From: a virus
Reading direction: 5' to 3' (one strand)
DNA: 61,944 nt
Virus record (IMG/VR): IMGVR_UViG_3300032087_000824
Span: 1 to 61,944 of that record
Positions within the stretch are counted from its first letter, which is position 1. The number at the start of each line of letters is the position of its first letter. Under the pieces are notes generated by a model. It was given only the letters and a program-made list of their open reading frames with translations. It was not told the origin of the DNA and did no database searches. The translations under genes were made by a program, and so were the position numbers. Of this stretch, positions 1,502 through 43,228 are shown piece after piece.

Positions 1502-2629
1502 TTAAGATACTGCTTGAATCTTGCAGTGATATGAAGGAGGTCCGAACTCGAATCCCATCTCCATATAAATTGCTTTACCAATTCTAGCGTTAGCATCTTG
1601 GTCTATGTCACGAACAAACACTGTTCCATATCCTGGGATATTTGTGAACACTGGTTGAATGTAAGCTAAGTCTAAGATGAATGAAGTATTGGCAGGCAAG
1701 ATATCAGGGTCAACAACCATCATTCCGATTGAACCGAATGGGGTTACGACTGTATCAATATCAAGACCTGCAACATTTCTATCTCTAGGAATGATTGCAC
1801 CTGTAATACCAACGTTACCTGCTATCAATTCTGTGTTAAGGTCCAATAATTGTTTTGGACTAACACATAATACAGGGTTACTCATTGGTGCGTGGTTGTC
1901 ATACATTCTCTTCAAAGCACCTGCTATTGCATCGAATGATAATACCTGGGTTGAACCTAAACCAGTACCAAGAGTGTCATTGTAGTAACAGTTACCACCA
2001 AGTGGATTAACTGCTGCTGCGTTGTTAGCGTTTTTGTTTAGTGAAATCCAAACATCAACACCATACATTTCTCTAGTTCCATCACCTGGGGTGACATTAG
2101 CACCGTCAGAGAAAGAACCATTGAATGCAAACCACTCAACTTCTCTTGCTACTTTTTCCATTGCTTTTTCCATTTGGAAAGCAAATTCATCTGCCACTGG
2201 ACTACCACCAAATAGTGCTAACTTGTCACCTGCTGTATTGCCGCCCTGTCCATCAGAAAAGTTAGCAATGTTTGCAGATAAGTCGAAAGGATTTTGGTTT
2301 TGTGTAGATGCTAAAGCTGTGTATGTCATTTGTACACCCTTGTGGAAAATCTGAGTCACATAAGTATATGCAGCTCTATCTCTTCCAAGATATTCTGTAG
2401 GTGTAGAACCTTCTTGTCCTTTAGTTGGTTCTGAATTAACTATTGCATTATCTTCTACTTGGACTTGCCAAAATGTAGAGTTTAATACTTTGCCGCCATT
2501 CAAACCGCCAACTGCGGATAATAAAGGTGTTCTTTGACCACCAACTTTAAACAATTCACCAGTGAAGTTATTAATTTGTTGGGCGTAGATAGTATCGCTA
2601 CCTGCACCACCAAGGCTTATGCTTGCCAT
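1502..2629 (-). CDS. Major capsid protein (module A)
   Basis: 375 aa. Homologous throughout to the 362-aa protein at 41472-42560: shared blocks include INNFTGELF/INNFAGELF near residue 20, LNSTFWQ, EYLGRDR, ALFGGSP and the C-terminal GTVFVRDIDQD plus AIYMEMGF. Length, position just after a scaffold-like gene and high conservation between modules all fit the major capsid protein. The N-terminal pattern resembles the SU10/DUF5309-type HK97-fold capsid proteins, but that assignment is from memory of the family. AGGAGAAGATAAAAT precedes the ATG. It is flanked by conserved RNA elements (upstream of its scaffold, and 3' of MCP), suggesting special control of its dosage. Confidence 0.88.
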   Translation of the reverse strand: MASISLGGAGSDTIYAQQINNFTGELFKVGGQRTPLLSAVGGLNGGKVLNSTFWQVQVEDNAIVNSEPTKGQEGSTPTEYLGRDRAAYTYVTQIFHKGVQMTYTALASTQNQNPFDLSANIANFSDGQGGNTAGDKLALFGGSPVADEFAFQMEKAMEKVAREVEWFAFNGSFSDGANVTPGDGTREMYGVDVWISLNKNANNAAAVNPLGGNCYYNDTLGTGLGSTQVLSFDAIAGALKRMYDNHAPMSNPVLCVSPKQLLDLNTELIAGNVGITGAIIPRDRNVAGLDIDTVVTPFGSIGMMVVDPDILPANTSFILDLAYIQPVFTNIPGYGTVFVRDIDQDANARIGKAIYMEMGFEFGPPSYHCKIQAVS

Positions 2630-2652: not shown

Positions 2653-3132
2653 TTACTTATTTTGTTCTTTTAAAGTATCTAACATTCGCAGTTTTGCGTT
2701 GATAGAATCTTTAGTTTTTGTATTGGAATCTCTTACGAAGTTTAGAAACTCTTGACCTACGTCAACAGGTTCTGCATTTACACCAAGTTTATTAAGCTGC
2801 TCAACTCTTGATTGAGCCTCAACTACATTGTTAGTTACTTGAGAACTTGCACTCTGTTGTGTGGAACTACTAACTTCTCCAAACTCTCGAGCAACAAAAT
2901 CTTTTATAGCATCAACAGATATATCACCATCATAGAGTTTTGTAACAGCTTTACCTAATCCCTTATCTGCTTCTAGTCCTATTTGACTCAAAGCATTGGT
3001 CATAGCTTGTGCTTTGAATTGTTTATTCTCAGCTTTAAGCTTTTTATACTCTTCTCTAAGTTGTTTGATTCCATCTGTAGATTCATCTGCAACTTCTTCT
3101 GTAGTGTCTACTTGTTGTATATTTTCTTCCAT
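2653..3132 (-). CDS. Capsid scaffold-like protein (module A)
   Basis: About 159 aa, acidic and helical with a clear coiled-coil stretch (LREEYKKLKAENKQFK), then ALSQIGLEADKGLGKAV, a segment shared almost word for word with the module B protein at 42575-43039. Length, charge, coiled coil and position immediately before MCP are typical of phage scaffolding proteins. The reading frame is open back to an ATG at 3156, but the ATG at 3132 is preferred because a GGAG box lies 8 nt before it. The conserved pseudoknot RNA (3200-3295) lies in the leader. Confidence 0.8.
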   Translation of the reverse strand: MEENIQQVDTTEEVADESTDGIKQLREEYKKLKAENKQFKAQAMTNALSQIGLEADKGLGKAVTKLYDGDISVDAIKDFVAREFGEVSSSTQQSASSQVTNNVVEAQSRVEQLNKLGVNAEPVDVGQEFLNFVRDSNTKTKDSINAKLRMLDTLKEQNK

Positions 3133-3199
3133 TATTATCTCCATTTTCTCTAGCATATATTTATCCCATAGTATTAATCGCTAGGTAATTAAAGGGATT

Positions 3200-3295
3200 T
3201 ACACAAGGGTTTATGAATAACAGATAACACACCTTGGCAATGTTACCGAATCCCAGCCCTATATTTTGTGTGCCGAACCTGGCAGGCACTACATC
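3200..3295 (-). ncRNA. Conserved two-hairpin/pseudoknot leader RNA, copy A
   Basis: Minus-strand RNA in the gap before the scaffold gene. Hairpin 1: GTGCC/GGCAC (3285-3289 with 3270-3274), 10-nt loop ending in GTTC. Hairpin 2: GGTAACA (3247-3241) pairs with TGTTATC (3229-3223), including one G-U, around an 11-nt loop containing CCAAGGT. Loop bases CAAGG (3236-3232) can pair with CCTTG (3208-3204), giving a pseudoknot. Module B (43121-43207) has the same loop lengths, the same CCAAGGT and the same pseudoknot, but different stem bases that still pair. Both copies contain a G-U at the same stem place, which works only on the minus strand. Confidence 0.8.
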
Positions 3296-3308
3296 TAGTA
3301 TAGCAGAA

Positions 3309-4361
3309 TTATTTTTCTGTCAAGCCAGTTACAGCACCTTCTTGTGTTTTTACTGCACCTAATTGTACTGCTGATTCTGATATATTTTGAGCTTGTATCG
3401 CTGCTAATTCTTGTGATGTTTCTAAGTTGCCTAAGTATTGTGCCTCTAGTATTTCCATTGATGTAGGAGCAGAATCTCTACGCTGCTGTCTTGCAACCCT
3501 AGCTGTGATTAAAGCTCTATCAACAGCAGCTTGAAATGTTCTCTGCGCTTCAGATACTTGTAAGCCTGCACCTACTAAACTTTCAATAGAAGTTCTACTA
3601 GCTTCAACTCCTGCAACTGTTTGATATTGATTACCAACTCTAGCTATATTTAATCTTCTATTTAAAACATTTGCATTTATTTCTGGGTCTATTATTAACG
3701 GTATTAATGCAGCTTCATCTAGCTCTATAACATCTCCTAACTCAGACGAATAGTATTCTTCATAAGCAGATAGTACACCTCTTTTTTGTTCTGGTGTTAA
3801 GTTGCTAAGTTGTTGTTCAGTAACAGAAAGTCTAGAAGCTATTTCGTCTGGTGAAACATTGTTAGATACAAGCTCAGGAAATATTGTATCAATAACTTGT
3901 GCGCCATATCCACCAATACCAAACTCATTGAAATGTATTAATACTGCTTCTTTATTCTGTAAGTATGTAGCTTCAGACATTCTAAGTGAGCCATCATCTC
4001 TTGTTATACCAGGAAATACTTTTTCATAACTATCACTAGACCTCATTCTTGCTAATGCAAATGTATCTTCACCGCTTTCTATGTATCCTGCAACATACTC
4101 GTCTATTAGTTTTTTACCTTCTACTGGTGCTAACTTAGTTAGCCAAGGCATTAATACTTGTGCTTGTTGTGGTGTAAACTGTACTGCAGTTTCATCTACA
4201 GGTTCTTGTGTACTCCAACCTTCATCTTGTGTTTTTATAGAAAGTTCAGACTTTTCTTCACCTTCTCTTCTGTAATACTGAGCAGTAGCAACAGCACCAT
4301 CTTTATATATTGTTACTTGCCTTCCGCCTTTAGGTGCATTCTTATCTACAAAAGCTGCCAT
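3309..4361 (-). CDS. Putative internal virion protein (module A)
   Basis: 350 aa, homologous to the 397-aa protein at 43229-44422. Shared features include an LPWL/MPWL motif followed by a conserved E-Y-GYIES block, NLGGY/GIGGYGA, NNVSP, and a C-terminal ending in VIGLTE/VTGLTE. Mostly helical, glutamine-rich towards the end, no catalytic motif seen. It is one of four consecutive genes between the giant protein and the scaffold that are conserved in order in both modules; in podoviruses this place holds internal core or DNA-ejection proteins, which is the inferred role. Starts with ATG overlapping the stop of the preceding gene (TAATG). Confidence 0.65.
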   Translation of the reverse strand: MAAFVDKNAPKGGRQVTIYKDGAVATAQYYRREGEEKSELSIKTQDEGWSTQEPVDETAVQFTPQQAQVLMPWLTKLAPVEGKKLIDEYVAGYIESGEDTFALARMRSSDSYEKVFPGITRDDGSLRMSEATYLQNKEAVLIHFNEFGIGGYGAQVIDTIFPELVSNNVSPDEIASRLSVTEQQLSNLTPEQKRGVLSAYEEYYSSELGDVIELDEAALIPLIIDPEINANVLNRRLNIARVGNQYQTVAGVEASRTSIESLVGAGLQVSEAQRTFQAAVDRALITARVARQQRRDSAPTSMEILEAQYLGNLETSQELAAIQAQNISESAVQLGAVKTQEGAVTGLTEK

Positions 4362-6327: not shown

Positions 6328-7718
6328 TATCTACTTAAACTCGCTATAGCGACACCAAGTCCTTGTTGGTACGCTTGTGCTTCTTTACCTTCATCAATAA
6401 GTGGTCTAAAATAATTATATACAAACTCATCTAGCCCTGTAGCAAATGCTGATGAAACATCATCATCTGACATTGCTGGTGGCAGTAAGTAATAATCTTG
6501 TTGTGTACCTGCAACTTGGTCTTGGTATGCCTGTGAAGCCATATCAACTCTAGCTTGTTCATAAACTCTTCTTGATTCTACATATGCAGCGCCTAATCTT
6601 TCTATTTCTCCATTAGCCCAATCTGCTATAACTTGATAATCTCTCATACTAGGATTTGCACCTATAGTTTCTCTAACTGTTTGATTAACATTAAATTTAA
6701 TAAATTCTGGATTTGCTTGTGCTATTAAAGCTGGTGCTGTAATAATAGGATTAGTATCTCTTAGTTGTACTTCTTCTATAATCTCTTCAAAATAGTTTCT
6801 CATAAATCCTAAAAATACACCTTCTTCTCCACCAGAAAGTAAATTAATTTCTCTTAAATCATTAACATCTAATCCATATTCAGGTTTAGTATTTAAATAA
6901 CTAAATGCAGATTCTAATGCTTCTACTGTTGCATCTTCTCCTGCTGTTCCTATTTCTCCAATAGTTCCTAATACATATGAGCCAGGTTGTAAGAATCCAG
7001 CTCTCATAAGTTTATCTTGTATGTTTGCTATTCTTCCTGGTTCTAATCCTGCTAAGAATGATGAAGCAATACCAAAGTTAAATACTGGTACAAGGTTTTG
7101 ATTCTTTGCGGCTTCCTTGTAATTTATTAATTGCAAATCATCTTGAAGTCCGTAATACTGCAACATACCTGATGCGTATCGTTCACCAAATGTATAACCT
7201 GGTCCTGCTGCTGTTTGGTCAGTAAAGTCTACAGTTTCTAATGCAGTAAGCAAAGCATCAGCATCACCTGTCTCTTTATATTTTTCCCAAGCTGCGTCTG
7301 CTAATCCTCTGTCTGTAACAGTAGGTTCAAACTCGTATTGTCTTTCTGTGAGATTTAATGCAGAAGCATACTCAGCATCAGCTTCTCTTTCCATATCGCT
7401 TTCATCTATATTTATAGTTATTTCACTAGGGTCTTGTCCTGTAATTCCTGATACAAATGCTGATGTAAGTGCTTTTCTTCGTTCTAAATCTTCTGATGTA
7501 GGTATAAGAACACTAACAAATTTTCTCATTGCTTTTGTGTCTGCACCTTTTTTAAGTAAAACAATTACATCTTCAACAACATTCTTAGGCATATCAGGTA
7601 ATGCTTTAAAAAACATACGTTGTAAATCTTCTAAATCAGCAATACCCTCACCAATAGCATCATAAATACTTCTTAATGTAAATCCTATTTTTTGATACTT
7701 TTGTTCTTCTCTATCCAT
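6327..7718 (-). CDS. Putative internal virion protein (module A)
   Basis: 463 aa, helical and acidic; homologous to the 590-aa product at 51836-53608. Both contain an ILV-G-DPxDIVI/TGQDPSEITI block followed by D-DM-E and a tyrosine, a YYGLxD/YYGLGD motif, and a VEAGFLKPFSFVYG/MRAGFLQPGSYVLG block that resembles a peptidoglycan-binding-like repeat found in phage ejection proteins. Role inferred as an internal or ejection protein next to the giant protein. Start and stop overlap neighbours by one base (TAATG), so translation is coupled. Its C-terminal end is much shorter than that of B. Confidence 0.6.
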   Translation of the reverse strand: MDREEQKYQKIGFTLRSIYDAIGEGIADLEDLQRMFFKALPDMPKNVVEDVIVLLKKGADTKAMRKFVSVLIPTSEDLERRKALTSAFVSGITGQDPSEITINIDESDMEREADAEYASALNLTERQYEFEPTVTDRGLADAAWEKYKETGDADALLTALETVDFTDQTAAGPGYTFGERYASGMLQYYGLQDDLQLINYKEAAKNQNLVPVFNFGIASSFLAGLEPGRIANIQDKLMRAGFLQPGSYVLGTIGEIGTAGEDATVEALESAFSYLNTKPEYGLDVNDLREINLLSGGEEGVFLGFMRNYFEEIIEEVQLRDTNPIITAPALIAQANPEFIKFNVNQTVRETIGANPSMRDYQVIADWANGEIERLGAAYVESRRVYEQARVDMASQAYQDQVAGTQQDYYLLPPAMSDDDVSSAFATGLDEFVYNYFRPLIDEGKEAQAYQQGLGVAIASLSR

Positions 7719-10700
7719 TACGAGCCTCCGTATAGTGTTGTATCTACAAACTCTTCTTCAACTTCATACTTAAATAAGTCAAGATACACATAGTAAAAGT
7801 CTGGATACTCTGAGAATAATTGCTGTGCAAGTTGTCTTAGAGCTGTTCTTTGTCTTACTAATTCTTCTCTTTGTAATGATACATTACTTCCTAATACAAG
7901 TCTAGCTTCTGTTAATAACCTGTTTCTTTGTTCCATATATGCTATAGCACCTTGTACTGCAGGAAGTTGTTTTAGTTTCGTTGTTTTACCATCTGGTAAC
8001 TTTATGTTTGTTTCACCATCTTGTCTTAACATATCTTCAAATTCTCTAATCTTTGCTTCTACATTCATAGAAGTAGGTATTGTAGAACTTACACCATAAC
8101 CTGGATACTCTTGTATCAATGCATTTCTAACAGCAGTAAGCATTTCAAACTTATTCTTACTTGGAACATTAGCGTATGCAGGTGTATCAAATAACAATCT
8201 TCTTTGATATTCGTAAGCTAATCTACCTTGTGCATTTCTAATAGCTGCAACATACTCATCTTCATCTATATCTACCCTATCTCTTTCTGCAAATGCATTA
8301 GCCCAAGAAGTAAAATCAAACTCATCTAGTGGGTTATCAGGGAATATATAATATCCAATGTTAGGATATCTATCTAATACTTCTTGGTTTTCTCTAGTAA
8401 ACCTACCACCTACTTCTGTATATGAACGTTTCTGTATTTCTTTTGATTTAGAAGTTAACAATGCAGTAGGGTCTATACCAAATTGATTTACAAATTCAGT
8501 AGTAGCAGCTAACTGGTCGCCTTTATATTTAGCTAATATTCTATAATATGCGTCTGCATATATAGACATACCAAAGTAATAACCATCTGGGTCACTCTCT
8601 TGAAACTCAGCAGGGTCAAGATATAATGCACCACCAGGTGTAGTTTCTATTTCATATCTTATTACTGCACCTGTAGGAGCTGCGAATTGTACAGCAGCCC
8701 TAATCCAAGACAATCTAGTAGCAATCTCTTCTGCTTTTTTCATAGCATCTTGTTGTTTTGCTCTAGTAGAATCATCATACAAACCTGTAGTAATTAACAT
8801 TCTTAATACATCTTTGTAGGTATTAGCATAAGTTCTTTTTATTTCAGGTGTACTTGCACCAGATATAGAAAATACTTTCTTTAACCAAGAAGGTATCATT
8901 GCATCTAAATAAGTATAAGGACTTACTGGAGAGCCTTCTTCTCTACCATATGGAAAGAATATCTTATCTAGTAAAGCTGTATCTGGTAACAACTTAGCTG
9001 CAGGTATTGCAACTAATGGACCTAAACCAGGAACAGGATTACCAGCAACCATATTTAAAGAAGAAGAATATCCCTCTAGTTTTATCCTGACATCTGGTGC
9101 TTTCATAGCATCTCCAGTAATAGGATTTGTCATTAGTCTATTTTCTTCTTCTCCAAACATATAATTTGTAAGTAACTCTGTACCAGGGAAAAAGAACATT
9201 TCTTCTCCTGACATTTCATCTGTATGAAAGAAACCTTCCTCTCCTTCTTCTCCTGAACCTCTAGCACCTTGAATTACACGTTGTACTTTACGACCTGCTA
9301 ATAGTTTTTGTTGATTAATTAATCTTGACCAAGTACCTATAATCTCTTGATAAACTTCTGCGAATGGAAAAGCTAGTCTTAACATATCAGATACAACGTG
9401 TCTTTTATTTAAATCATATAGTAATCTTTTTGTTTCAGACAATGCATAGGCTTTAGCTGCGTCATCTAATTCACTAATGTTTTCTACACCAAGTATTCTT
9501 GCATCACCATCTCTGATAGGTTTTGTACCTTTAAGTATTCTTGCAGTTTCACCAGAGTTCTTTACCCACTTAGAAGCTTTCATATTAGCCATACTTATAA
9601 TTTCATTCTTCAATGCTTCGTCATAATATGCACCATTCTCTTCTATAAATCTCCAGTAATATTGTCTGAATGCTGATGACCTAGATAGTCTGTTAGTAGG
9701 AACTGCCATCAATGTTGTAAACAAATTCTCTAACACTTGGTCATACTTACTAATAGTTTGTGCATTTATATCATAAGTTGATTTCTTCATAGTATGATAA
9801 GCACCATAAATTTCTCTATCTTTATCTATTTGTCTTATGTGTCCTTTGTAAGTTCTGTGGTCATCTAGTGTTTGGTTTCTACCAAATGTAATTTCTATAG
9901 GATTGCCGTCAGGGTCAACACCTATTTTTAATCTAGTTGGTTTACCAGCAGGTATCATATCTCTAGTAGCTTGTATTCTTTTACCAAAAGCTATATGTCT
10001 TATTAATTCATCATCTCCTGGCTTTATAATATCGTGAACAATAATACTTGTAGGAGATGTTCTTGTTACAGCTTTACCAGTAGAACCATCTGACCTATGT
10101 AATACTTTAAATGTTCCATCTTCAAAAACTTCTTTTGTTTCAAAGTGTCCACCAGTTTTGTAATGTATTCTTGCAACAATACCATCAATATAAGCATCTG
10201 CAGCTTTTCTGTCTGTAAGCATTCTTATTTTTTGATATTTACCTATTTCATCTGAACCATAAGAGTAAGATGTTCTCCAATCAGATAAATCGCCATCCCA
10301 AAATCTATCTTTAATTTCTTTAATAGCATCTTCAGCAGATACAGTTTCATCAAGCACAGCTTCAGTTTGTTCTTCTTTTAACGCTTTAACTTTTCTTTGT
10401 AAGTAATTATTTATTCTTGGAGCTTTTTCTTCTAGTTGTGCTAAACCTGTACCTAAACCATCTTCAGGTAATACAACTACTTTACCAAGACCTCTTGCTT
10501 CATCTATCTTTTGAAATGCTTCATCAATAGCTTCTACAGCTACATCATAATCATCATCACTAAAAAACTTTCTAGCAGAATTTTTTGTTGGAACTCCTAT
10601 TACATTTGGCTCATCTCTAATAATTGCTTGTCCTGCTTTGCCTGTTCTAGCTAAATTATCTCCAAATACAAACATTTTGTTAGGATTGTTTTTTACAATA

Positions 10701-13700
10701 GCTGGTGTAAATCTCTTCATAGAGATTAACTCACCTCTAAATGTTCCATTAAATCCTGTAAGTTTATAAGCTATCTCAGCAGCTATAGGGTCATCACCTA
10801 ACTGTATAACTTCTCCTGCTGCACCACCATAAAAAGTATCATCTGTTTTATTAACTTCTAAAAAAGAACCTTGTCTAGAAAATGATTGATTAGGGTCAAG
10901 TACGCCTCCGTGTGATGTAGTCATTGCACCACCGTGTTCTATACCTTCTCCTATAGTATTGCCCTCTATATCGTATACGCCTTTTGCTATAAGTCTTTCT
11001 GCAAATTCATCTTCATCATAACCTCTAACTCTATAAGCTATTTTTCTTTGGTCTTTACCCATTATCCAAGCAAATGCAGATAATGGATGACTAAATACAT
11101 TGTCTAAATTATCCATCCACATACGAATTTGTTCTTCACCAACAACCCTAGAAGTCCAAGCAGCTCTTAAAAGTATTGCTGGCTTCCAAGCTTTATTCAT
11201 ATATGAATCGCCTATCATTCCTAAGTAACCTGAAGTTAACTCTCTAACTATTGCATCTTCTTCATTCTTTGTTAATTTAAATCTTTTTCTAGCATTTCTA
11301 ACCATAAGCTCTGCAGTTTCTGACACGCTTTTGTCATCTTTAATAGTAAGTTCATAAAGTCTAGATACTGGTTTAGCTAGTTCTTTTTCAAATTGAGATG
11401 CTATAACTTCATCTTCTTGTAAACCTGCAAGTCTTTGTGGTATTAATTTACCCTTACCTGCTGCTCTCATCCAAAACTCTCTTGCTGGAGAATATACTCT
11501 TAAAAATAATCTTGCATCAGGAAGTGGTATTGCGTCAGTACCTAAATACTCTGCAATAAGTTGAGCTGTAGGTCTGCCTGATATCTTTGCAATGTTTTCA
11601 ATTTGTGCTTCATTAAATAACTGTTCACTAATTCTTTCCATTGTTTCATAGTTCTGTACTTTGTTTTCAAAGAAGCTAAGTATTTGTTGTGGTGTTACCT
11701 TTGCATTCTGTATTACTTTAGAACCTTTTTCTGTTTTCTTAAATGGAGCTTTACTTTTAATAAACAATGGTTTAAGAACACTTTCTAGGACATCTCTGTC
11801 TTTAAATCCAGCAGGTCCTGCAATATTAACTGTTTTATTTCTAAGAAGCTTTTGTGCTTCTACAATAAAATCATCTGTAAGATTTGGATTTTCTAAATCA
11901 ATAAGTATCAAAGGTTTGTTAAGTGTCTTTTTAAAAACACCTGTTTCATACTTGTCTATATTTTTTGCAACTTCATCTCTCCACTCTGGTCCTACCCATC
12001 TGTTTCTAGATGCGTACAATATAGTTTTAGCAGTACCACCACCGCCTTGTGTAAGTTTGCTTTTTCTAAATGCAACTATTGTTACATCATTGTTATCTAC
12101 ATTTTGAGTAGTTCTAAATTTATAATCTCTTGGTCTAGGTTTCATAGCACCTATATCTCCACCATTTAATATATTTAATTCGTCTTGTAGTTTTATATAA
12201 TTAGCAGCATCATTGCCTTGATATAATATTTGATTGCTAATTTTTGATAATTGTTTTTTTGTATTCATTAATTTTACTTGTGCATCTGTAAGTAACTCAT
12301 CTGCATTATTTAAAAATTCTCTATATCCTCTTTCATCAAAACTTTCAAATATAATTGTTCTTTGTATTTTTATATCTCCAGTTGGTTTTGGATAAGCACC
12401 TTCTTCTATAAATTCTCTTACATTAAAATCAGGACTTAGACCAGTATCTGTTTCATTTTTACCAAATCTTTTTACTGGATATCTATAATTGGTTGTTTCA
12501 ATTTTAGTTCCGCCACCTTCTTTAGGAAGTTTTACTTTACGTTGATAAACAGCATCATATTGAATTGTTTTATTTTTTACAAACCTAAGTATTGCTGATT
12601 TAAATTGTAAGTCATCAACAATTTCTCTAACACTTCTGTCATCACCTTTTGTAACATCTTTACCTTTAACTGTAGTTTGTTTTATTCTTTTGCCTTGTTG
12701 GTCTACACCTTGATAATTCTTACCTTCTAACTCTACATTAATTCTAAATAATTCTTGTTCAGCAAGTTCAGCATTTCTTAAAGCCTGTTGCAACTGTTCG
12801 TCTGTATATTTTTCAGGAAGAATACCTTTATCTACCTTCTTTAATTTTTCTGCTTCAACTTTTTTTGTTAATGTGTTTATTTCGTTTTCTAAAACAATTT
12901 GTCTTTTAAGCAGTGAAGCATCGCCACCACCTTCAGTAACTTGTTTTATATATTCTTCTAAAGCTTTTACTGCATCTTCTCTTTTAGAAAAATTAATTAA
13001 TCCACCTTTACCTTTTATTTCTAATGCAATCCTGTCAGCTATTTCTGTTTCAGTTAAATCTCCAAATTTACCTTTATTAAGTATTTGATAATATCTTGCT
13101 TTTTCACTTGCAGTTAATCTTTCTTCTTTAAATGTATCTTTAAATTTAAGACCTTTAGTGTTTTGTGTTATTTTTTGTTCTAACCTAGCCAGGCTATTTT
13201 CAGTGCTTTTAATAGCGTCATCTACTGAATCTTGTACATTGTATTTTAATAACTGACCTGCACTGCTGTCATATCTACCATCTTTAATTGTACGTTGTGT
13301 AAGACCAGGCATACCGACACCACCAGTTTCAATACCTATATCATCTGCTATTTGTAAACCTAAAAAGTCAACACCCTCTTGACCACCACTACTTACTTTC
13401 TTTACAAGCACTTCCATTTCTGGGTCTAGCCTGTCTATAGTAGCTTCTGGTAATATTTCTTCTAGAAAATCATCTTTAAGAAAATTCATAGAAGGAACAT
13501 TTAAATCAGCAATAATATTATCTGGACCAGCTAATTCATAATCTATACGAACTGCTTCACCGTTTTTAAAATAATTTTTATTTTGAATTTGAGATTTGTA
13601 CCATTCGTATGTATATCCTTCTTTCCTAGCAATTTCTCTAGCCCTATCTTCTAATTTAGGATTTGTAAATAAATCTTTTGGGAGTGTTTCAACATTATTT

Positions 13701-15814
13701 ACACGAACTAAAACTTTTCTATTTGTATTTTGGTCAAGCATTTGCCTAATTTGACCTACTTCAGGTGCGCCATTATATCCTGCTAATGACCTAGTTGTAG
13801 ATGTTCTTTTACCCTGCATAATAAGTTCCATAGTGTTTGTGTCTTTATTTGAAAAAGGTGTATTTGTTTTTTTAACAGTAAAGTTCATTGGTATAGGTTT
13901 ACCTTCACCAACTATGTTTTCTATTTGTCCAAGTTCTGACTTAGCATCTCTAATTAATCTTCTTCTGCCACCTACTTCTACTTTTTTAACTCCAGCTCTT
14001 TCAGCAACTCTTTCTACAATCTCTAAAGCTTTTTCTAGTTCAAACTGTTGAGATAGTATTGCATTACCTTTACTATCTACAATATCTAGTTTTTGTCCTT
14101 GCCAAAACTCCTCTGACATATTTGTTCTAAAGTATTTTCTAGTTTCATCAATAGAACCCATAAACTTTTTAATACCTTTAGATAATTCTGGAGGTAAATC
14201 TAACGCATCAAACTTCTGTGCTATATGTGTAAATACTCCATCATCACCACCTATGACATCAAGTACTAAAGATAACTTAGCTAAGTTTGCAGGTCTAGGG
14301 TCATATGGTGTTTGTGCATCAAATGGTATATCTGCTAATGCAGTAATAGCAGGGTCTTCCATACCATCTGCAATTCTATCTAAAGCTTTTATAGCAATTT
14401 CATCATCTACTTTTGCAAATTTCATCCACGCTTTTAATTCAAAAAATGTTGTATTTAAATCATTAGCGTGCAATCTTGGTGCAGGAAACTCTTGAAACAA
14501 TCTACCCCATTTAGAATCTTGATTGTTTAATTTCATAGCAGTTCTAAATCCACCTGCTCCATAATCTGAACCATAGTATGCTTTGCCTGCTGCTCTAGAA
14601 AACTTACCTTTAAATATTAAAGAGTTAGAATCTAGACGTTTGTTAAATGCTAAATTGTCTTGTGTGGTTTCTATAAGTATTTTTTGTACTTCTGATGCAT
14701 TATCTGCATCTCTAAGTTGTCTGCCGATAATAGCACCATTATCTAAATTTTTAAGTTGACCTTTAGTTAATATATCTATTTCATCATATGTACTAGCTCT
14801 TACAAATAAATCTGCAATATCTCTACCTGTTTGTGATGTATAAAATTCTTTTGCGGTAGGCTGATGAACTGTTGCTCTAACAGCTTTATTTATAAGACCT
14901 GGTTTATTATTAGGTGTAAATGTTCTTACTGCTTTACCTGCTCTAGATATACCTAAACCTAAATAAGTTGAAGGGTCTGTAAATATAGTATAAGCACCAT
15001 CAATAACACCTGACATAAATTTAAATGCTTTACTTCCTGGTTCAAATATTTCTACAGCAGCTACACGACCAGGAGATAATTTAACAGTACCTTTTCTACC
15101 TTGATAGCTTAATGCTGCTTTTTCTCTATCTTGTATTGTAGGTTGTGATATAGGTGTTCCTAACTGTTCTTGTATAGATTCTCTTACAATGTTTGGGTCT
15201 GCACCTCTACCTACTAATTCTTTATAAACTTCTGTATCTTCAGCTAATGTAGAGTTTCCAAAGTAACCTTCACCTAAATTAACTTTGTTACCTTTTTTTA
15301 TTTCTCTAAAAGCTCTACCTGCTAGTGTAGGTCCTGTTTCTTCAAATGTATTTTTTAATTCTGTATGAAAGTCAGGATTAATTGCTGCTAATGCTGTACC
15401 TATACCAGAAAAAAACAATAATGGGTTTTGTTGTTTTTTAGAGTAATATCTCATACCTGCAGTACCAAATCTTTTTACAAACTGGCTAGCAGATTCCATA
15501 CCTACAAAAGCACCTCTAATTGCACCCCTACCAGATGCTTTTATACTTTCCCACCAACTTCTTTCTTTTTCCATATATGAATTTACGATAGATGTAAACT
15601 CAGGACTATCTTTAGTAAGACCAACCATAGCACTTGCAACTTGTACATCTGTAGGTAAGAACCCATATTCTTGAGATATACCTATTAAGTTTTGTGCTAT
15701 ATCGTTTTGAGAAAAATAATTTCTAAGTTCTTGTGCTTGGTTTTTTCTTTGTTTTACAAACTCTGAATCAAGAGCGTCTTGATACGGAGATGGAAAACTC
15801 CACTCCCACGCCAT
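7718..15814 (-). CDS. Giant multidomain virion protein, 2698 aa (module A)
   Basis: The longest gene here. Its ends (residues ~1-600 and ~1850-2698) align with the 2283-aa module B protein, with blocks such as NLGEGYF-NSTLAEDT and RQYYWRFIE. The middle carries what look like accessory domains: an ASCH-like segment (~655-760, GKRTSTTR), the first half of a SLOG/YpsA-type nucleotide-binding domain (~806-865, SGGQEGVD then TGG), a long coiled-coil insertion (~870-1220), the second half of the SLOG fold (~1231-1330), and a DUF7831-like segment (~1700-1808, FVFGDNLARTGKAGQA). Size and position suggest an internal protein ejected with the DNA. The SLOG and DUF7831 calls rest on remembered motifs. 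The role of the cargo is unknown. Confidence 0.75.
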   Translation of the reverse strand: MAWEWSFPSPYQDALDSEFVKQRKNQAQELRNYFSQNDIAQNLIGISQEYGFLPTDVQVASAMVGLTKDSPEFTSIVNSYMEKERSWWESIKASGRGAIRGAFVGMESASQFVKRFGTAGMRYYSKKQQNPLLFFSGIGTALAAINPDFHTELKNTFEETGPTLAGRAFREIKKGNKVNLGEGYFGNSTLAEDTEVYKELVGRGADPNIVRESIQEQLGTPISQPTIQDREKAALSYQGRKGTVKLSPGRVAAVEIFEPGSKAFKFMSGVIDGAYTIFTDPSTYLGLGISRAGKAVRTFTPNNKPGLINKAVRATVHQPTAKEFYTSQTGRDIADLFVRASTYDEIDILTKGQLKNLDNGAIIGRQLRDADNASEVQKILIETTQDNLAFNKRLDSNSLIFKGKFSRAAGKAYYGSDYGAGGFRTAMKLNNQDSKWGRLFQEFPAPRLHANDLNTTFFELKAWMKFAKVDDEIAIKALDRIADGMEDPAITALADIPFDAQTPYDPRPANLAKLSLVLDVIGGDDGVFTHIAQKFDALDLPPELSKGIKKFMGSIDETRKYFRTNMSEEFWQGQKLDIVDSKGNAILSQQFELEKALEIVERVAERAGVKKVEVGGRRRLIRDAKSELGQIENIVGEGKPIPMNFTVKKTNTPFSNKDTNTMELIMQGKRTSTTRSLAGYNGAPEVGQIRQMLDQNTNRKVLVRVNNVETLPKDLFTNPKLEDRAREIARKEGYTYEWYKSQIQNKNYFKNGEAVRIDYELAGPDNIIADLNVPSMNFLKDDFLEEILPEATIDRLDPEMEVLVKKVSSGGQEGVDFLGLQIADDIGIETGGVGMPGLTQRTIKDGRYDSSAGQLLKYNVQDSVDDAIKSTENSLARLEQKITQNTKGLKFKDTFKEERLTASEKARYYQILNKGKFGDLTETEIADRIALEIKGKGGLINFSKREDAVKALEEYIKQVTEGGGDASLLKRQIVLENEINTLTKKVEAEKLKKVDKGILPEKYTDEQLQQALRNAELAEQELFRINVELEGKNYQGVDQQGKRIKQTTVKGKDVTKGDDRSVREIVDDLQFKSAILRFVKNKTIQYDAVYQRKVKLPKEGGGTKIETTNYRYPVKRFGKNETDTGLSPDFNVREFIEEGAYPKPTGDIKIQRTIIFESFDERGYREFLNNADELLTDAQVKLMNTKKQLSKISNQILYQGNDAANYIKLQDELNILNGGDIGAMKPRPRDYKFRTTQNVDNNDVTIVAFRKSKLTQGGGGTAKTILYASRNRWVGPEWRDEVAKNIDKYETGVFKKTLNKPLILIDLENPNLTDDFIVEAQKLLRNKTVNIAGPAGFKDRDVLESVLKPLFIKSKAPFKKTEKGSKVIQNAKVTPQQILSFFENKVQNYETMERISEQLFNEAQIENIAKISGRPTAQLIAEYLGTDAIPLPDARLFLRVYSPAREFWMRAAGKGKLIPQRLAGLQEDEVIASQFEKELAKPVSRLYELTIKDDKSVSETAELMVRNARKRFKLTKNEEDAIVRELTSGYLGMIGDSYMNKAWKPAILLRAAWTSRVVGEEQIRMWMDNLDNVFSHPLSAFAWIMGKDQRKIAYRVRGYDEDEFAERLIAKGVYDIEGNTIGEGIEHGGAMTTSHGGVLDPNQSFSRQGSFLEVNKTDDTFYGGAAGEVIQLGDDPIAAEIAYKLTGFNGTFRGELISMKRFTPAIVKNNPNKMFVFGDNLARTGKAGQAIIRDEPNVIGVPTKNSARKFFSDDDYDVAVEAIDEAFQKIDEARGLGKVVVLPEDGLGTGLAQLEEKAPRINNYLQRKVKALKEEQTEAVLDETVSAEDAIKEIKDRFWDGDLSDWRTSYSYGSDEIGKYQKIRMLTDRKAADAYIDGIVARIHYKTGGHFETKEVFEDGTFKVLHRSDGSTGKAVTRTSPTSIIVHDIIKPGDDELIRHIAFGKRIQATRDMIPAGKPTRLKIGVDPDGNPIEITFGRNQTLDDHRTYKGHIRQIDKDREIYGAYHTMKKSTYDINAQTISKYDQVLENLFTTLMAVPTNRLSRSSAFRQYYWRFIEENGAYYDEALKNEIISMANMKASKWVKNSGETARILKGTKPIRDGDARILGVENISELDDAAKAYALSETKRLLYDLNKRHVVSDMLRLAFPFAEVYQEIIGTWSRLINQQKLLAGRKVQRVIQGARGSGEEGEEGFFHTDEMSGEEMFFFPGTELLTNYMFGEEENRLMTNPITGDAMKAPDVRIKLEGYSSSLNMVAGNPVPGLGPLVAIPAAKLLPDTALLDKIFFPYGREEGSPVSPYTYLDAMIPSWLKKVFSISGASTPEIKRTYANTYKDVLRMLITTGLYDDSTRAKQQDAMKKAEEIATRLSWIRAAVQFAAPTGAVIRYEIETTPGGALYLDPAEFQESDPDGYYFGMSIYADAYYRILAKYKGDQLAATTEFVNQFGIDPTALLTSKSKEIQKRSYTEVGGRFTRENQEVLDRYPNIGYYIFPDNPLDEFDFTSWANAFAERDRVDIDEDEYVAAIRNAQGRLAYEYQRRLLFDTPAYANVPSKNKFEMLTAVRNALIQEYPGYGVSSTIPTSMNVEAKIREFEDMLRQDGETNIKLPDGKTTKLKQLPAVQGAIAYMEQRNRLLTEARLVLGSNVSLQREELVRQRTALRQLAQQLFSEYPDFYYVYLDLFKYEVEEEFVDTTLYGGS

Positions 15815-27771: not shown

Positions 27772-28464
27772 ATGGCAGAGAGTAATTGTTGGAAATTGTT
27801 TGATGCAATTATTGGTGCAACACCAAGAATATTGCTGTATGGTGTACCTGGTACAGGGAAAACATATCAAGCAAACACAACTAATTTAGAAGGTAGAAAT
27901 ACTTACAATGTTACCTTAACACAAGACAGTAGTGCTAGTGAATTGCTAGGACATTATGTTCTAAATGAAACTGGTGGTATGGATTGGTTAGATGGTATTG
28001 GTGTACAAGCTTGGAAAGATGGTGCAAGACTTGTGGTTAATGAGATTGACCACGCAGGTGTAGATGTTATGTCATTTCTACACGCCCTTCTTGACGACCC
28101 TGAGTTTGCAAAGTTCACACTACCAAACAAGAGAAAAGAAACTGTAAGACCACAACCTAGCTTTCAAGTGATAGCTACTATGAATGGTGTTCCAGAGGAT
28201 TTACCTGAAGCATTAATTGACAGGTTTCCTGTAAAGATAAACATTGATACTGTACACCCAAGTGCATTGGAGAGTTTACCTGAGAAGTTCCGTAGTGTAT
28301 ACGCTGACTACAACCAAGGTGCTTTCTCTATTCGTAGATGGATTGCACTAGGCGAACTGCTTGACAAAGAAGTCAACTTAGAGTACGCAGTACAAACTAT
28401 ATTCCCTAATGAGTATGAAGAAATTACTGATGCTTTGGTAGTTGCTTTGAATAGTGATGAGTAA
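27772..28464 (+). CDS. MoxR/CobS-type AAA+ ATPase
   Basis: 230 aa, AAA+ core. Walker A GVPGTGKT at ~24-31, Walker B LVVNEID at ~87-93, a sensor-1-like ATMNG near 136, and an arginine-containing segment (LIDRFPV) near 148. Short, single-domain AAA+ proteins paired with a VWA protein are the rule for MoxR- and CobS/CobT-type machines, which remodel or insert metals into target proteins. The next gene is such a VWA protein, overlapping by one base. CobS-like genes are known in marine phages; whether this one acts in cobalamin metabolism cannot be decided here. Confidence 0.82.
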   Translation: MAESNCWKLFDAIIGATPRILLYGVPGTGKTYQANTTNLEGRNTYNVTLTQDSSASELLGHYVLNETGGMDWLDGIGVQAWKDGARLVVNEIDHAGVDVMSFLHALLDDPEFAKFTLPNKRKETVRPQPSFQVIATMNGVPEDLPEALIDRFPVKINIDTVHPSALESLPEKFRSVYADYNQGAFSIRRWIALGELLDKEVNLEYAVQTIFPNEYEEITDALVVALNSDE

Positions 28465-30257
28465 TGTTATTTGTTAAAAGAGAACAGAAAGCTAGTGCAA
28501 AAGATTATCCTAATCTTGCACTTGGTACAGATAACAAGTTTATTCGTAGAGTACCAACACCTGCTGCTGTAAGAAAAACAGTTAAGAAAAATGCTGTTCC
28601 AGTTGTAGAAACACAGGAAAGATATTCATCTAGAGAAAAACTTATTGCTCTTGCGCAATCAAAGTTGTTCTCTGATAAGAAGTATATGAAATTGAGTGAG
28701 TTTGATTACTCAACCAATGTACCTGTTGCAGAGAGAATAGTATCTAACTATGAAGCTGATACTTGGGTTAGGAAAGCTATGAGTAATAAAACTACTAGGT
28801 CAATTACAAATAGTGATAAGTATTACAACAGTATGAATACATTACCATATCCAACATTTGGACAAGCTAAAAAGCATATACAAGAGTTTGTGAGTATATT
28901 TTATAGAAAGAATACTAACGATAAAGATATATACAAATTCTTTATGCAGACACTAGCTAACTATGGTACTACATATGCTTCAAGCTATTGGACTTATTCT
29001 TTGTCAATATCTGATGAACTTTTAGAATATGTAGTAGGTAAAGAAGATAACTTTGAATTTGTAGAAGCTAAGTTATTTGCTATGAAGCCAAATGATATTC
29101 ATCAACTTAAACAAGAAGAATGGCAAGTTCTTTTATACAAAGCTGTGATGTTAGAGATGCCTGAGGCAACTCGTAATCAAGTATTTGAGGACACTAAATT
29201 CATTTTGTTAAAATTAAATTCGTTAGCTCAAATAAAAAATCGTGCTTCCAGAGTTCTTAATAGAAAGAGGAATAGAAAAATTTCTCCTAAGAATATCAAA
29301 GATGTTATTGCAAGTATGTCTTATAACAAATACTTTGAACACGTTCAATTTATGTTAGACAGACATCAAAAGATGTACAAAGAAGTGTATCAAGGTACAC
29401 CTACTACTAATAACTTAGTAGAAGCAATAGATGATATGAGTGAATTTAAGGTAGATTACTATGGAAATGTTAAACCTAAAGATGAAGGAAATGATATATT
29501 AGATGACACACCATCAAATGTATTACCTGATTGGCTAACAAAGGACTTGTCTGAGAATATATTAGATGAAGCAAATAAAAATTATAATAGTAATTTTAAA
29601 GTTGAAGGTTATGGTAGAGGTGTACACGGTAGAGGATTACTTCACAAGTTTGTTCCTAACAGAAGGGATAAGGTTGTTGAGGAAAAACTACATAGGCAAC
29701 TAAGTGATGCTGGTGTTAAGCCAAGAAATATACACAGAATACTTACTGATAGGAAAGTATTTGCTCGTAGGAAAAAAATAGCAGGTGGCTCTGTAATGAT
29801 AGATTGTAGTGGCTCAATGGCTTGGTCAATAGAACAACTAAGAGAGATTTGCAGAATACTACCAGCTTCTAAGATTGCTGGATATACTGGATATTCCGCG
29901 AGTGATAAGCGAGATGGTGTTATGTATCAAGGTGATATTCGTATTATTGCAGACAAAGGCAAATATGATGACAACTCACTTATTGAACTTTATAAGCACG
30001 GAAACAACAATGTTGATTTAGATGCTATTAAATGGCTTGCACAACAAGAAGAGCCTAGAATATGGGTTACTGACTTGCAAGTTGTTGGTGTTTCTACTGA
30101 TAGCTACAAGTATATAGGAAAACATTGTCCAGAAACCTTAAACAATGAAGGCAGGGTTGAGATATCGCGCTTTATGAAAAAGCACAATATCATACCTATT
30201 GAAAAGTTTGAGTATGTTAAAGAGTTTGCAACTCAATACGCTAACTTTATAGGTTAA
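28464..30257 (+). CDS. VWA-domain protein, partner of the AAA+ ATPase (CobT-like)
   Basis: 597 aa. The C-terminal third is a von Willebrand factor A domain with a MIDAS motif MIDCSGSM (DxSxS) near residue 445. The long N-terminal ~400 residues are helical and unassigned. Start overlaps the stop of the AAA+ gene (TAATG), a typical ATPase-VWA operon. Such partners present substrates to the ATPase ring. The pair resembles CobS/CobT of cobaltochelatase and other MoxR-VWA systems, but there is no CobN gene, so the substrate is unknown. A strong terminator follows. Confidence 0.75.
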   Translation: MLFVKREQKASAKDYPNLALGTDNKFIRRVPTPAAVRKTVKKNAVPVVETQERYSSREKLIALAQSKLFSDKKYMKLSEFDYSTNVPVAERIVSNYEADTWVRKAMSNKTTRSITNSDKYYNSMNTLPYPTFGQAKKHIQEFVSIFYRKNTNDKDIYKFFMQTLANYGTTYASSYWTYSLSISDELLEYVVGKEDNFEFVEAKLFAMKPNDIHQLKQEEWQVLLYKAVMLEMPEATRNQVFEDTKFILLKLNSLAQIKNRASRVLNRKRNRKISPKNIKDVIASMSYNKYFEHVQFMLDRHQKMYKEVYQGTPTTNNLVEAIDDMSEFKVDYYGNVKPKDEGNDILDDTPSNVLPDWLTKDLSENILDEANKNYNSNFKVEGYGRGVHGRGLLHKFVPNRRDKVVEEKLHRQLSDAGVKPRNIHRILTDRKVFARRKKIAGGSVMIDCSGSMAWSIEQLREICRILPASKIAGYTGYSASDKRDGVMYQGDIRIIADKGKYDDNSLIELYKHGNNNVDLDAIKWLAQQEEPRIWVTDLQVVGVSTDSYKYIGKHCPETLNNEGRVEISRFMKKHNIIPIEKFEYVKEFATQYANFIG

Positions 30258-32549: not shown

Positions 32550-32632
32550 TGTCACATCCAATACCAGGATATAGTTATCATTGTGAGGATTGTGGAGAAC
32601 ATTTAACAGAACAAAAACATATCTGCGATTAA
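32549..32632 (+). CDS. 27-aa zinc-knuckle mini protein
   Basis: Start overlaps the preceding stop (TAATG). Sequence has CEDC, then H, H and a final C, enough for a minimal zinc site. Last gene of the rightward operon, followed at once by a convergent terminator. Short, but the coupled start and Cys/His pattern support it. Confidence 0.5.
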   Translation: MSHPIPGYSYHCEDCGEHLTEQKHICD

Positions 32633-32672
32633 GCAAGAGCCGAGGTAGAAAGGATAACACCCTCGGCTTTGC
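32633..32672. terminator. Convergent bidirectional terminator
   Basis: AGCCGAGG (32638-32645) pairs with CCTCGGCT (32661-32668); GCAA/TTGC extends it past one bulged base. T-rich on both sides. It separates the end of the rightward operon from the end of the leftward lysis/late operon, and could also mark a boundary between two phage units. Confidence 0.8.
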
Positions 32673-32678
32673 TATTAT

Positions 32679-32867
32679 TTATTTAGATATTTTTTTCTTT
32701 GCGAACTCTTTAACAACTACCATAGCAGATGATGCACCTGCGATAGCTGCTAATTGGATAGCATCAGCATCAACACCAACTATTGGAGCAACTGTCAATG
32801 CTCCAATAAATGCTTCCACAAATGTCCAAATAGTTTTTTCAAGAATTACTTTATATTCTTCACTCAT
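32679..32867 (-). CDS. Putative holin, 62 aa
   Basis: One hydrophobic segment (~APIVGVDADAIQLAAIAGASSAMVV region) after a TFVEAFIGALT amphipathic part, with a basic C-terminus (KEFAKKKISK). This resembles the r1t-type holins often found next to amidases. The start overlaps the amidase stop (ATGA). Holin would open the inner membrane for the lysin at the end of infection. Confidence 0.65.
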   Translation of the reverse strand: MSEEYKVILEKTIWTFVEAFIGALTVAPIVGVDADAIQLAAIAGASSAMVVVKEFAKKKISK

Positions 32868-33481
32868 TTTATTAAGTTTCCTAACTTTAGTTTATTATCT
32901 ATGTTTTCTAGTTTAGCAATAATGATATCTAGTTTTTTATCTGTAGTCATTTTATTCTTTACTTGACTTGATTTTTGTGGAGATTTGTGTTCAATAATCC
33001 ATTGTCGCCAAGCATCACCTGGACAATCTGTTTGTTTAAAAAAACTGTGAGGTTTAAGTTCACCACCTACTTGTTCGTAGAGCCACTCAATAGATTTAAT
33101 AGCTTTATCTGAAGGCTTGTCGGTAGGATTGCTACCACCCAACCAGCACACAGCAACATAATGCTTGTTATTATAGTTAATCTCTTCCCTACTGTTGCCA
33201 CCTTGTGCTGCACTTCTGTTTCCAAATCCTCTGCCTTCATATATTTGTCCTGTATCTCCTACTAAAAAGTTATATGCTACATCATTCCAACCTCTGTCTA
33301 CTTGATGCAGTCTTTGTATTGTCTTACACTGGTCCATCTCTGCTTGATTTCCTATTGCAGTAGGATAAGCAGACCAGTGTATAACTAATCCTTTTACTTC
33401 TCCTAGTTTACTAAATTTTGTTTTGTTAGGTTTAGCACCCCAACTATCTCTACTTATTATTTTCACAGTTATTACTCCCAT
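32864..33481 (-). CDS. N-acetylmuramoyl-L-alanine amidase (lysin)
   Basis: About 205 aa, an Amidase_2/PGRP fold that cuts the MurNAc-L-Ala bond. Zinc ligands: VIHWSA (H ~35), KPHSFF (H near 142) and TDCPGD (C near 150), with a conserved WNDVAYNF block between. C-terminal ~45 residues are a Lys-rich coil, perhaps wall-binding. Start is uncertain: ATG 33481, or GTG 33466 preceded by GGGAG. Lies beside the putative holin at the end of the late operon, thus the likely lysis enzyme. Confidence 0.88.
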   Translation of the reverse strand: MGVITVKIISRDSWGAKPNKTKFSKLGEVKGLVIHWSAYPTAIGNQAEMDQCKTIQRLHQVDRGWNDVAYNFLVGDTGQIYEGRGFGNRSAAQGGNSREEINYNNKHYVAVCWLGGSNPTDKPSDKAIKSIEWLYEQVGGELKPHSFFKQTDCPGDAWRQWIIEHKSPQKSSQVKNKMTTDKKLDIIIAKLENIDNKLKLGNLIK

Positions 33482-33539
33482 TCTTACAGTTACATATCTG
33501 TACAAAAGAACCATCTTCTTTTACTTCTACCATACACAT
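33450..33539 (-). CDS. Possible 29-aa cysteine-containing peptide
   Basis: ATG two bases after the stop of the previous gene (TAATATG), ends at TAG 33450, overlapping the amidase start in another frame. Contains CNC and one more cysteine. May only be a translation-coupling reading frame. Confidence 0.3.
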   Translation of the reverse strand: MCMVEVKEDGSFVQICNCKNGSNNCENNK

Positions 33540-33540
33540 A

Positions 33541-34014
33541 TTATCTATTACTTTCTAACCAAGCAATTCTATTTCCATAGTCATCTAGCTTCCATAAATC
33601 ATTTGTTAAAGATTGTAACTGTGTTTCTAATCTAATTACTTGGTCGCCAAGATTATCCCATTCCCATTTCTCAGGAAGATATTTGTTTTCTATATCCCAA
33701 CCACTATCTAAAACATCTTGTCTTAGGTTATTAACATCAGCTTGTAGATAAGCAATCTGTTCTCCTAAGTATTCTGCATTAACAAGTTGTTGTTCTAAAT
33801 CAAATATCTTTTCGTAAAGAACTGCAATATCAGAAGCTACCATAGTTTCTTCTTTTAACCTACCAAAGTCTTGTTCAATAAAATCCATACGCTCATCAAT
33901 ACCTTGAAGTGTATTGACTATCTCAGCAGCAGTACCTAAACCTGCACCAACAGAACCCATAAGAGCTACTGCTGTTGCAACTAAACCTATGTTATCTTTT
34001 ATTTTTTTTATCAT
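33541..34014 (-). CDS. Membrane-anchored coiled-coil protein, 157 aa
   Basis: N-terminal hydrophobic segment (GLVATAVALMGSVGAGLG) followed by a long charged coiled coil (residues ~40-150). The ATG at 34014 overlaps the previous stop (ATGA). Location next to the amidase suggests a role in lysis (spanin-like or regulator) or anchoring; sequence alone does not decide. Confidence 0.6.
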   Translation of the reverse strand: MIKKIKDNIGLVATAVALMGSVGAGLGTAAEIVNTLQGIDERMDFIEQDFGRLKEETMVASDIAVLYEKIFDLEQQLVNAEYLGEQIAYLQADVNNLRQDVLDSGWDIENKYLPEKWEWDNLGDQVIRLETQLQSLTNDLWKLDDYGNRIAWLESNR

Positions 34015-42574: not shown

Positions 42575-43039
42575 TTAATTGTCTTGTTGTTTTAGTCCTT
42601 CCATCATCTGCAATTTTGCAGTGATAGATTTTCTTACATTTCCGTCAGCTTCTTTAAGAACTTCTTGGAATGTATGGAAGATATCTTTAGCATCTTCTGA
42701 CACTCCTAAACTTTGTAAGTTCTGCACACGCTGTTGTGCAGCTACTGTATTGTCTACGACAGTATCATCTGAACTTGGTTGGGCTGCAACTTCACTGTCG
42801 CCTAATCCAAATTCTTCTGAAGCATATGCTTTAATAGCATCTACACTAATTGGACCATCATACATTTTAGATACAGCTTTACCTATACCTTTATCTGCTT
42901 CTAGTCCTAATGATGATAAAGCAGTACCCATAGCATCTGACCTAAGTTCCTTGTTTTCAGCTTTAAGCTTCTTGTACTCAGCTCTTAGTTCTGCTAATCC
43001 ACCGCTAAATTCATCTGCGTTTGTTTTATCTTCTGACAT
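42575..43039 (-). CDS. Capsid scaffold-like protein (module B)
   Basis: 154 aa; LRAEYKKLKAENKELR coiled coil, then ALSSLGLEADKGIGKAV, as in module A. Ends KQQDN. AGGAGAGATAAATT before the ATG. The conserved pseudoknot RNA lies in the upstream gap. Confidence 0.8.
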   Translation of the reverse strand: MSEDKTNADEFSGGLAELRAEYKKLKAENKELRSDAMGTALSSLGLEADKGIGKAVSKMYDGPISVDAIKAYASEEFGLGDSEVAAQPSSDDTVVDNTVAAQQRVQNLQSLGVSEDAKDIFHTFQEVLKEADGNVRKSITAKLQMMEGLKQQDN

Positions 43040-43114
43040 AATTTATCTCTCCTAATGTTCTCAAGCATACTTTTAACCCTATATATAAATCGCTTGGTAA
43101 TTTAAAGGGGTGTT

Positions 43115-43210: not shown

Positions 43211-43228
43211 TATATATGGTACTACCTT

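Follow-up and report, generated by a model that had tools for sequence, protein, structure and literature searches.

Why the same folded RNA should stand before the scaffold gene at two places in one viral DNA record, and what it does there, is the question raised by IMG/VR record IMGVR_UViG_3300032087_000824. The whole stretch analysed, 61,944 nucleotides and here called the window, carries two pairs of scaffold and capsid genes, each with such an element upstream:

2653–3132, minus strand: scaffold gene by position, copy 1 (PHROG 7813, function unknown), directly before the major capsid protein (MCP) gene
1502–2629, minus strand: MCP gene, copy 1 (PHROG 1328 major head protein, 2.7e-25)
42575–43039, minus strand: scaffold gene by position, copy 2 (PHROG 7813; 49% identical to copy 1)
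41472–42560, minus strand: MCP gene, copy 2 (PHROG 1328, 2.4e-28)

A reading of the two elements as paralogous loci of one genome was rejected: to judge from its matches to other contigs, the record most likely arose when the sequences of two related phages were joined during assembly. Where compared, window positions 33,878–61,944 are 99.9–100% identical to contig IMGVR_UViG_3300031977_000477, while position 1 to about 32.6 kb is mostly 88–96% identical to the 42-kb contig of locus L003. The junction lies at 32,600–33,900; the right part of the window begins at the end of the 43.5-kb contig of L038, to which it is identical, and the left part resembles the L003 contig. On these sequence comparisons the two leader copies are orthologues, of phage A and phage B, inside one record. 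Two copies per contig also occur in 3300025769_000167 (52.6 kb; L085 and L102) and 3300020468_000009 (52.9 kb; L154 and L163), both oversized and carrying two diverged scaffold or MCP modules; either a similar joining or a biological cause, such as tandem genomes, may account for them. Elsewhere in the window, an AAA_5 (MoxR-like) ATPase gene (27772–30257, plus strand) lies in an early module and is directly followed by a 597-aa gene whose sole relation is a PHROG of unknown function. Very long minus-strand open reading frames, at 7718–15814 (2,698 aa) and 53608–60459 (2,283 aa), lie in the late modules of both phages.

The leader is almost certainly a cis-acting 5' RNA of about 140–190 nt that is built from H-type pseudoknots in series, three of them or, in some clades, four, and reaches from the predicted transcription start to the ribosome binding site of the scaffold–capsid mRNA, as judged from alignment of its relatives. 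Its parts, with scores from R1, a covariance model of the nested helices, and from nhmmer, are as follows:

3150–3290, minus strand: leader RNA of phage A (copy 1), with three pseudoknots in tandem, reaching from the predicted +1 to 7 nt upstream of the Shine–Dalgarno (SD) sequence; R1 149.6 bits, nhmmer 1.5e-37, and covariation
3270–3289, minus strand: hairpin P1, copy 1, GTGCC (3289–3285) with GGCAC (3274–3270), 10-nt loop
3253–3282, minus strand: PK1, copy 1, loop CCAG (3282–3279) with CTGG (3256–3253)
3223–3247, minus strand: hairpin P2, copy 1, GGTAACA (3247–3241) with TGTTATC (3229–3223), 11-nt loop
3204–3236, minus strand: PK2, copy 1, loop CAAGG (3236–3232) with CCTTG (3208–3204)
3163–3198, minus strand: P3 outer stem, copy 1, ATCCC (3198–3194) with GGGAT (3167–3163)
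3192–3188 with 3178–3174, minus strand: P3 inner hairpin, copy 1, inside the outer stem, TTAAT with ATTAA
3150–3184, minus strand: PK3, copy 1, CTAGC (3184–3180) with GCTAG (3154–3150)
3130–3142, minus strand: SD sequence GGAG (3142–3139) and scaffold start ATG (3132–3130), copy 1
43062–43208, minus strand: leader RNA, copy 2 (phage B); R1 128.6 bits, nhmmer 1.1e-25
43207–43203 with 43192–43188, minus strand: P1, copy 2, CTGCG with CGCAG, 10-nt loop
43200–43197 with 43174–43171, minus strand: PK1, copy 2
43163–43157 with 43145–43139, minus strand: P2, copy 2, GGCAGAC with GTCTGTC, 11-nt loop
43152–43148 with 43125–43121, minus strand: PK2, copy 2, CAAGG with CCTTG
43104–43100 with 43090–43086, minus strand: P3 inner hairpin, copy 2
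43096–43092 with 43066–43062, minus strand: PK3, copy 2

The initial annotation had proposed two hairpins with loops of 10 and 11 nt and one CAAGG/CCTTG pseudoknot, and all of these were found where it had placed them, on the minus strand, in both copies. It had ended the first element at 3200 and counted one pseudoknot; the element at 3200–3295 stands, but the structure runs on to 3150, and there are three pseudoknots, PK1 and PK3 having been missed. In the clade of copy 2 the outer stem of P3 is reduced to a CCC/GGG core of 3–4 bp, which lacks support there.

Folding of single sequences was unremarkable. The folding energies of the two window copies did not differ from those of shuffled sequences (z +0.66 and +0.23), and the chaining of pseudoknots in single sequences did not discriminate them from shuffles either (mean z about 1.2, with the tested stretch misplaced for several loci). 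As the copies fold no better alone than shuffles, in which chained pseudoknots are frequent, the evidence rests on comparison. Unremarkable folding also speaks for the view that there is no RNA function here and that conserved DNA (a promoter or binding site) or coding sequence merely looks paired, and part of the upstream conservation is promoter.

Upstream regions were taken from the loci found in IMG/VR by scaffold-protein searches (37, 3 and 80 loci), giving 58 distinct close leaders that were aligned by sequence anchors. A second alignment, A5, was made of 26 diverse leaders with MAFFT, the structure not being used, and a structure of 36 pairs was scored on it. In A5, 94.7% of pair cells are paired, compared with 30–42% when partners are slid by 1–3 columns; both-side changes number 101 against 29 ± 5 in shuffles, and the covariation score is 0.352 against 0.160 ± 0.010, a value reached by none of 500 shuffles, although these controls lean towards the structure because it was chosen by inspecting these sequences. 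Compensatory changes occur in 21 of the 36 pairs. RNAalifold, with the alignment as sole input, picked the PK1, P2 and PK3 helices.

A tree-aware null of our own was applied to the 58 leaders, in which substitutions were redistributed on a FastTree tree and 4,753 column pairs were scored by an APC-corrected G statistic. Three PK1 pairs had E values below resolution when all column pairs were considered; because the PK1 columns concerned had changed jointly a single time, four alternative pairings among them reached equal scores. Over all pairs the best P2 and P1 pairs reached E 0.93 and 2.2, and counting only the roughly 32 proposed pairs these become about 0.006 and 0.015. The five rigid helices of the 58 leaders contain 58 G-U and no A-C cells among 1,508, showing that the functional RNA is the transcript in the sense of the scaffold gene.

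Individual helices show how the pairing is kept. In A5, P1 has both-side changes in 3 of its 5 pairs, and its types among the leaders include GTACC/GGTAC, CTGCG/CGCAG and ATGCG/CGCAT. Hairpin 1 is itself part of a pseudoknot, in which four loop bases pair with the four bases directly after a conserved ATAGGG; all four of these PK1 pairs covary in A5, with strand types CCAG/CTGG, GCAG/CTGC, ACAG/CTGT, ACGA/TCGT, GCGA/TCGC and GTGA/TCAC, and TCGA/TCGT as the sole recurrent mismatch. P2 carries both-side changes at every one of its seven pairs (variants include GGTAACA/TGTTATC, AGTTGG/CCAACT, GAGAGAA/TTCTCTT and AACAGAA/TTCTGTT), and PK2 shows a two-sided change in L113 and L116 (TAAGG/CCTTA). 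P3 is weaker in the clade of copy 2; in A5 its outer stem is paired in 87.6% of cells with both-side changes in three pairs, and its inner hairpin in 92.9% with one. PK3 is paired throughout, and relatives carry CTGGC/GCCAG and CAAGC/GCTTG.

The leader plan extends well beyond these close relatives. Searches with R1 and with the MCP, one of which took in 80 of 399 matched relatives, reach phages whose MCPs are 50–70% identical, and there the plan is kept while the strands have changed. The L145 and L182 groups have CTACG/CGTAG as PK2, L181 and L193 have CAACG/CGTTG, L138 has TACGG/CCGTA, and L153 and L164 have CTACT/AGTAG. The last pseudoknot, beside the SD sequence, occurs as CTATG/CATAG, CACAG/CTGTG, CTACC/GGTAG, CACAC/GTGTG, CTGATG/CATTAG and TTATAC/GTATAA. 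Four pseudoknots are present in the L145 group (22 distinct leaders), in which all 154 cells of P4 are paired, with compensation at 6 of 7 positions, as are all 110 of PK4 (3 of 5 compensated) and 143 of 154 of PK3 (3 of 7). In small groups the strands were read by eye only, and so was a fourth pseudoknot in the groups of L182 and L181; the register of PK1 is ambiguous in the L182–L202 group. In the group of L240, L242 and L246, set against L241, nearly all of the 10-nt hairpin 1 loop is taken up by downstream pairing, one block being GGTC/GACC and the other TTGC/GCAA, which changes jointly to TTGA/TCAA; such pairing may compete with hairpin 1 and form a possible switch. The leaders occur in uncultured marine phages from many metagenomes.

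Selection on RNA structure upstream of the scaffold and MCP genes, which the initial annotation had claimed from the two copies, is thus strongly supported by the sequence comparisons, with compensatory changes found across both the 26- and the 58-leader alignments; in homologues the stems are kept by compensation, not broken. The absence of an RNA function is contradicted by the covariation, by the compensation in distant clades and by the presence of G-U cells yet no A-C cells. Compensatory changes fall in every helix, pairing collapses on sliding, and many of the length changes would break a reading frame; that the region merely looks paired is extremely improbable.

The element is also confined in its position. 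Of 228 MCP loci with sufficient upstream DNA (140 distinct 680-nt regions), R1 and nhmmer detected it at 227, and in those loci at no site other than the one before the scaffold gene, a count that is a description and no independent test, since some loci repeat a single contig and the nhmmer profiles drew on some of these loci. The remaining locus, L146, has a weak R1 match in the right place. An independent, protein-blind DNA pattern scan found 47 true leaders. Every one of the 44 that have 170 nt or more of downstream sequence stands before a scaffold or MCP gene, the other three being cut by the contig end.

The copy 1 scaffold gene starts at 3132 and not at 3156: this start is common to all homologues, and in L026 and L031 the frame is broken by changes of length upstream of it. 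The copy 2 scaffold had no match in annotated phages. The MCPs are 23–31% identical to those of mycobacterial, propionibacterial and bifidobacterial phages, and in Mycobacterium phage Mendokysei an annotated head scaffolding protein gene directly precedes the MCP gene. Kinship of the scaffold profile with that protein was sought and none was detectable, so the name scaffold rests on gene order and one weak PHROG 648 match (E 0.005) of a relative. Directly before the annotated scaffold gene of Mendokysei (L122, 2640–2690) is a terminator-like hairpin with CCAAGG in its loop, which, lacking a downstream CCTTG, is probably a chance likeness. One relative (L121) sits in a MAG named Actinomycetota bacterium RS345, and a marine actinobacterial host is plausible.

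In every clade the SD sequence lies outside all helices, and the last pseudoknot ends 1–7 nt upstream of it. Phages require scaffold and capsid in large amounts, and this need, together with the short gap and the free SD sequence, would suit an element that recruits ribosomes, the folded chain docking on the 30S subunit or shielding the start region and so raising initiation without a regulator. A strong SD sequence with A-rich flanks is, however, enough for most phage capsid genes, and over 100 nt separate the first pseudoknots from the SD sequence; recruitment of this kind seems distinctly unlikely.

At the other end of the leader, 48 of the 54 distinct upstream regions in clade I have a TATAAT-like -10 box that ends 7 nt upstream of the point where P1 begins. 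The L182 group shows this distance in 10 of 10 regions; in the L145 group it holds for 8 of 16, with 8–9 nt in the others. At sigma-70 promoters the -10 box usually lies 6–7 nt from +1, and this spacing predicts that transcription should start at P1, so that the mRNA would begin inside the structure. The window contains two promoter-like sites:

3297–3323, minus strand: copy 1, TTGACA (3323–3318) and extended -10 TGcTATACT (-10 at 3302–3297)
43216–43243, minus strand: copy 2, TTGACA, 16 nt, TACCAT, with 10 of 12 consensus matches

The copy 1 site was absent from a consensus scan for spacers of 16–18 nt because its spacer is 15 nt, and its -35 TTGACA overlaps the end of the upstream gene. From these boxes transcription is predicted to start near 3290 in copy 1 and 43209 in copy 2; read-through transcription from upstream is possible.

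By analogy with known mRNA stabilisers, we favour, with a little less than even confidence, the reading that the leader shields the 5' terminus of an abundant mRNA while keeping the ribosome site accessible. It is favoured because the structure is kept by compensation in the sense of the transcript, the -10 box places +1 at P1, the SD sequence is free, and the element is located only before the scaffold and MCP genes. Were transcription to start at the first base of hairpin 1, the mRNA would have almost no unpaired 5' end. The pseudoknot chain would then hinder 5'-end-dependent decay (pyrophosphate removal, 5' sensing by RNase E, and RNase J), giving a long-lived capsid message, while the unpaired SD sequence, 1–7 nt past the last pseudoknot, would stay open to frequent initiation. 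A phage precedent is the T4 gene 32 mRNA, which has a leader pseudoknot and is the most stable T4 mRNA (PMC3014915). B. subtilis RppH cannot do without two or more unpaired nucleotides at the 5' end, and the ompA, papA and aprE mRNAs are stabilised by 5' stem-loops (PMC3997798 and its references). In these stabilisers, as is predicted for the leader, structure occupies the extreme 5' end of an abundant mRNA and the SD sequence downstream is open (PMC3997798), but they are simple hairpins, whereas the leader is a covarying pseudoknot chain kept across capsids 50–70% identical. The exonuclease-resistant xrRNAs of RNA viruses, which stop 5'–3' exoribonucleases, are likewise compact pseudoknotted folds, often in tandem, and bacterial RNase J1 is mechanically stopped by such folded viral RNA (PMC5760640). 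Their likeness to the leader is one of fold, and they differ in being ring-like structures in viral 3' UTRs of eukaryotes with a three-way junction that was not seen in the leader. Two points argue against the shield: one 5' hairpin is enough in the known stabilisers, so that three or four covarying pseudoknots seem excessive for a shield, and the ends of loops and spacers (ATAGGG or ATAGA, AATTACC) are sequence-conserved within clades, which hints at a bound partner.

Such a partner is at the centre of the main rival, an autoregulatory operator, in which free scaffold (or capsid) protein would bind the pseudoknot array and repress translation of its own mRNA until taken up into procapsids, thereby balancing scaffold and coat. 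The leader stands directly before the scaffold gene and nowhere else, and its last pseudoknot abuts the SD sequence in every clade, as an operator might. A precedent exists in the scaffolding protein of phage P22, which is known to autoregulate post-transcriptionally. Another is T4 gp32, which represses its own translation via a leader pseudoknot (PMC3014915). The gene 32 operators of T4, T2 and RB69 resemble the leader in placing an H-type pseudoknot in a phage mRNA 5' leader upstream of the ribosome site, but they have a single pseudoknot, some 67 nt upstream, and then an A+U-rich stretch that lacks structure, in front of the gene of an ssDNA-binding protein (PMC3014915). The leader does not have this layout of a single pseudoknot, A+U-rich ribosome region and ssDNA-binding protein gene; its three or four pseudoknots fill the space up to the SD sequence, before scaffold and capsid. 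Weighing further against the operator, the scaffold protein showed no RNA-binding motif and has no family other than PHROG 7813, and the pseudoknot strands vary freely with pairing kept, so that a protein which reads sequence would have to read shape. Structure that starts at +1 is also not required of an operator. This reading is possible but rather doubtful.

Shield and operator are not mutually exclusive in nature. A more speculative proposal, which would make the leader a new class of phage RNA, joins them: an exoribonuclease-resistant cap extending from the first nucleotide to the ribosome site, possibly also sensing free scaffold protein, would let capsid synthesis track assembly. Control of capsid dosage, suggested in the initial annotation, is plausible; the packaging mark that it also offered is unlikely in a double-stranded DNA phage, and no finding supports it.

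The array could otherwise be a riboswitch or an RNA decoy, sensing a small ligand or host factor, or mimicking the pseudoknots of type III antitoxins against a host toxin. Type III antitoxin RNAs (ToxI) likewise string pseudoknot units together shortly before a protein gene, and PMC3997798 cites one pseudoknot antitoxin. ToxI, however, consists of near-identical direct repeats followed by a terminator and a ToxN-type RNase gene, while the units of the leader differ, no terminator-like site was seen, and the next genes are PHROG 7813 and then the MCP. No direct repeats were found between the pseudoknot units apart from one 18-nt pair at 83% in copy 2, outside the register. Among the curated families of Rfam 15, including riboswitches and ToxI, none matched the window or any of 11 divergent loci at the gathering score, and a permissive threshold gave chance-level hits (E up to 5). 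Nor is there a large invariant core across clades that could form a ligand pocket. Both versions are quite improbable.

In the open-access literature on tandem pseudoknots, capsid leaders and structured phage RNAs, no description of the leader was found. Three consecutive pseudoknots in a UTR also form the upstream pseudoknot domain of tobacco mosaic virus, which is needed for translation and accumulation (PMC4683447); it lies in the 3' UTR of a plant RNA virus, and a common origin with the leader is not suggested. A 2010 review considered the T4-type gene 32 pseudoknot perhaps the sole viral pseudoknot in translational autoregulation (PMC3014915). Pseudoknotted phage leaders are therefore known, as in T4 gene 32, but a chain of three or four units filling the leader of a capsid mRNA is, to our knowledge, new.

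Tailed phages need hundreds of coat proteins, with scaffold in the correct amount and at the correct time, and little is known of how coat and scaffold amounts are set post-transcriptionally beyond a few model phages. This conserved and so far unclassified leader of marine phages offers a concrete element on which capsid control can be tested. Should it block decay from the 5' end, it would count as the bacterial equivalent of the exonuclease-resistant RNAs known from RNA viruses; should the scaffold protein bind it, assembly feedback would have an RNA target.
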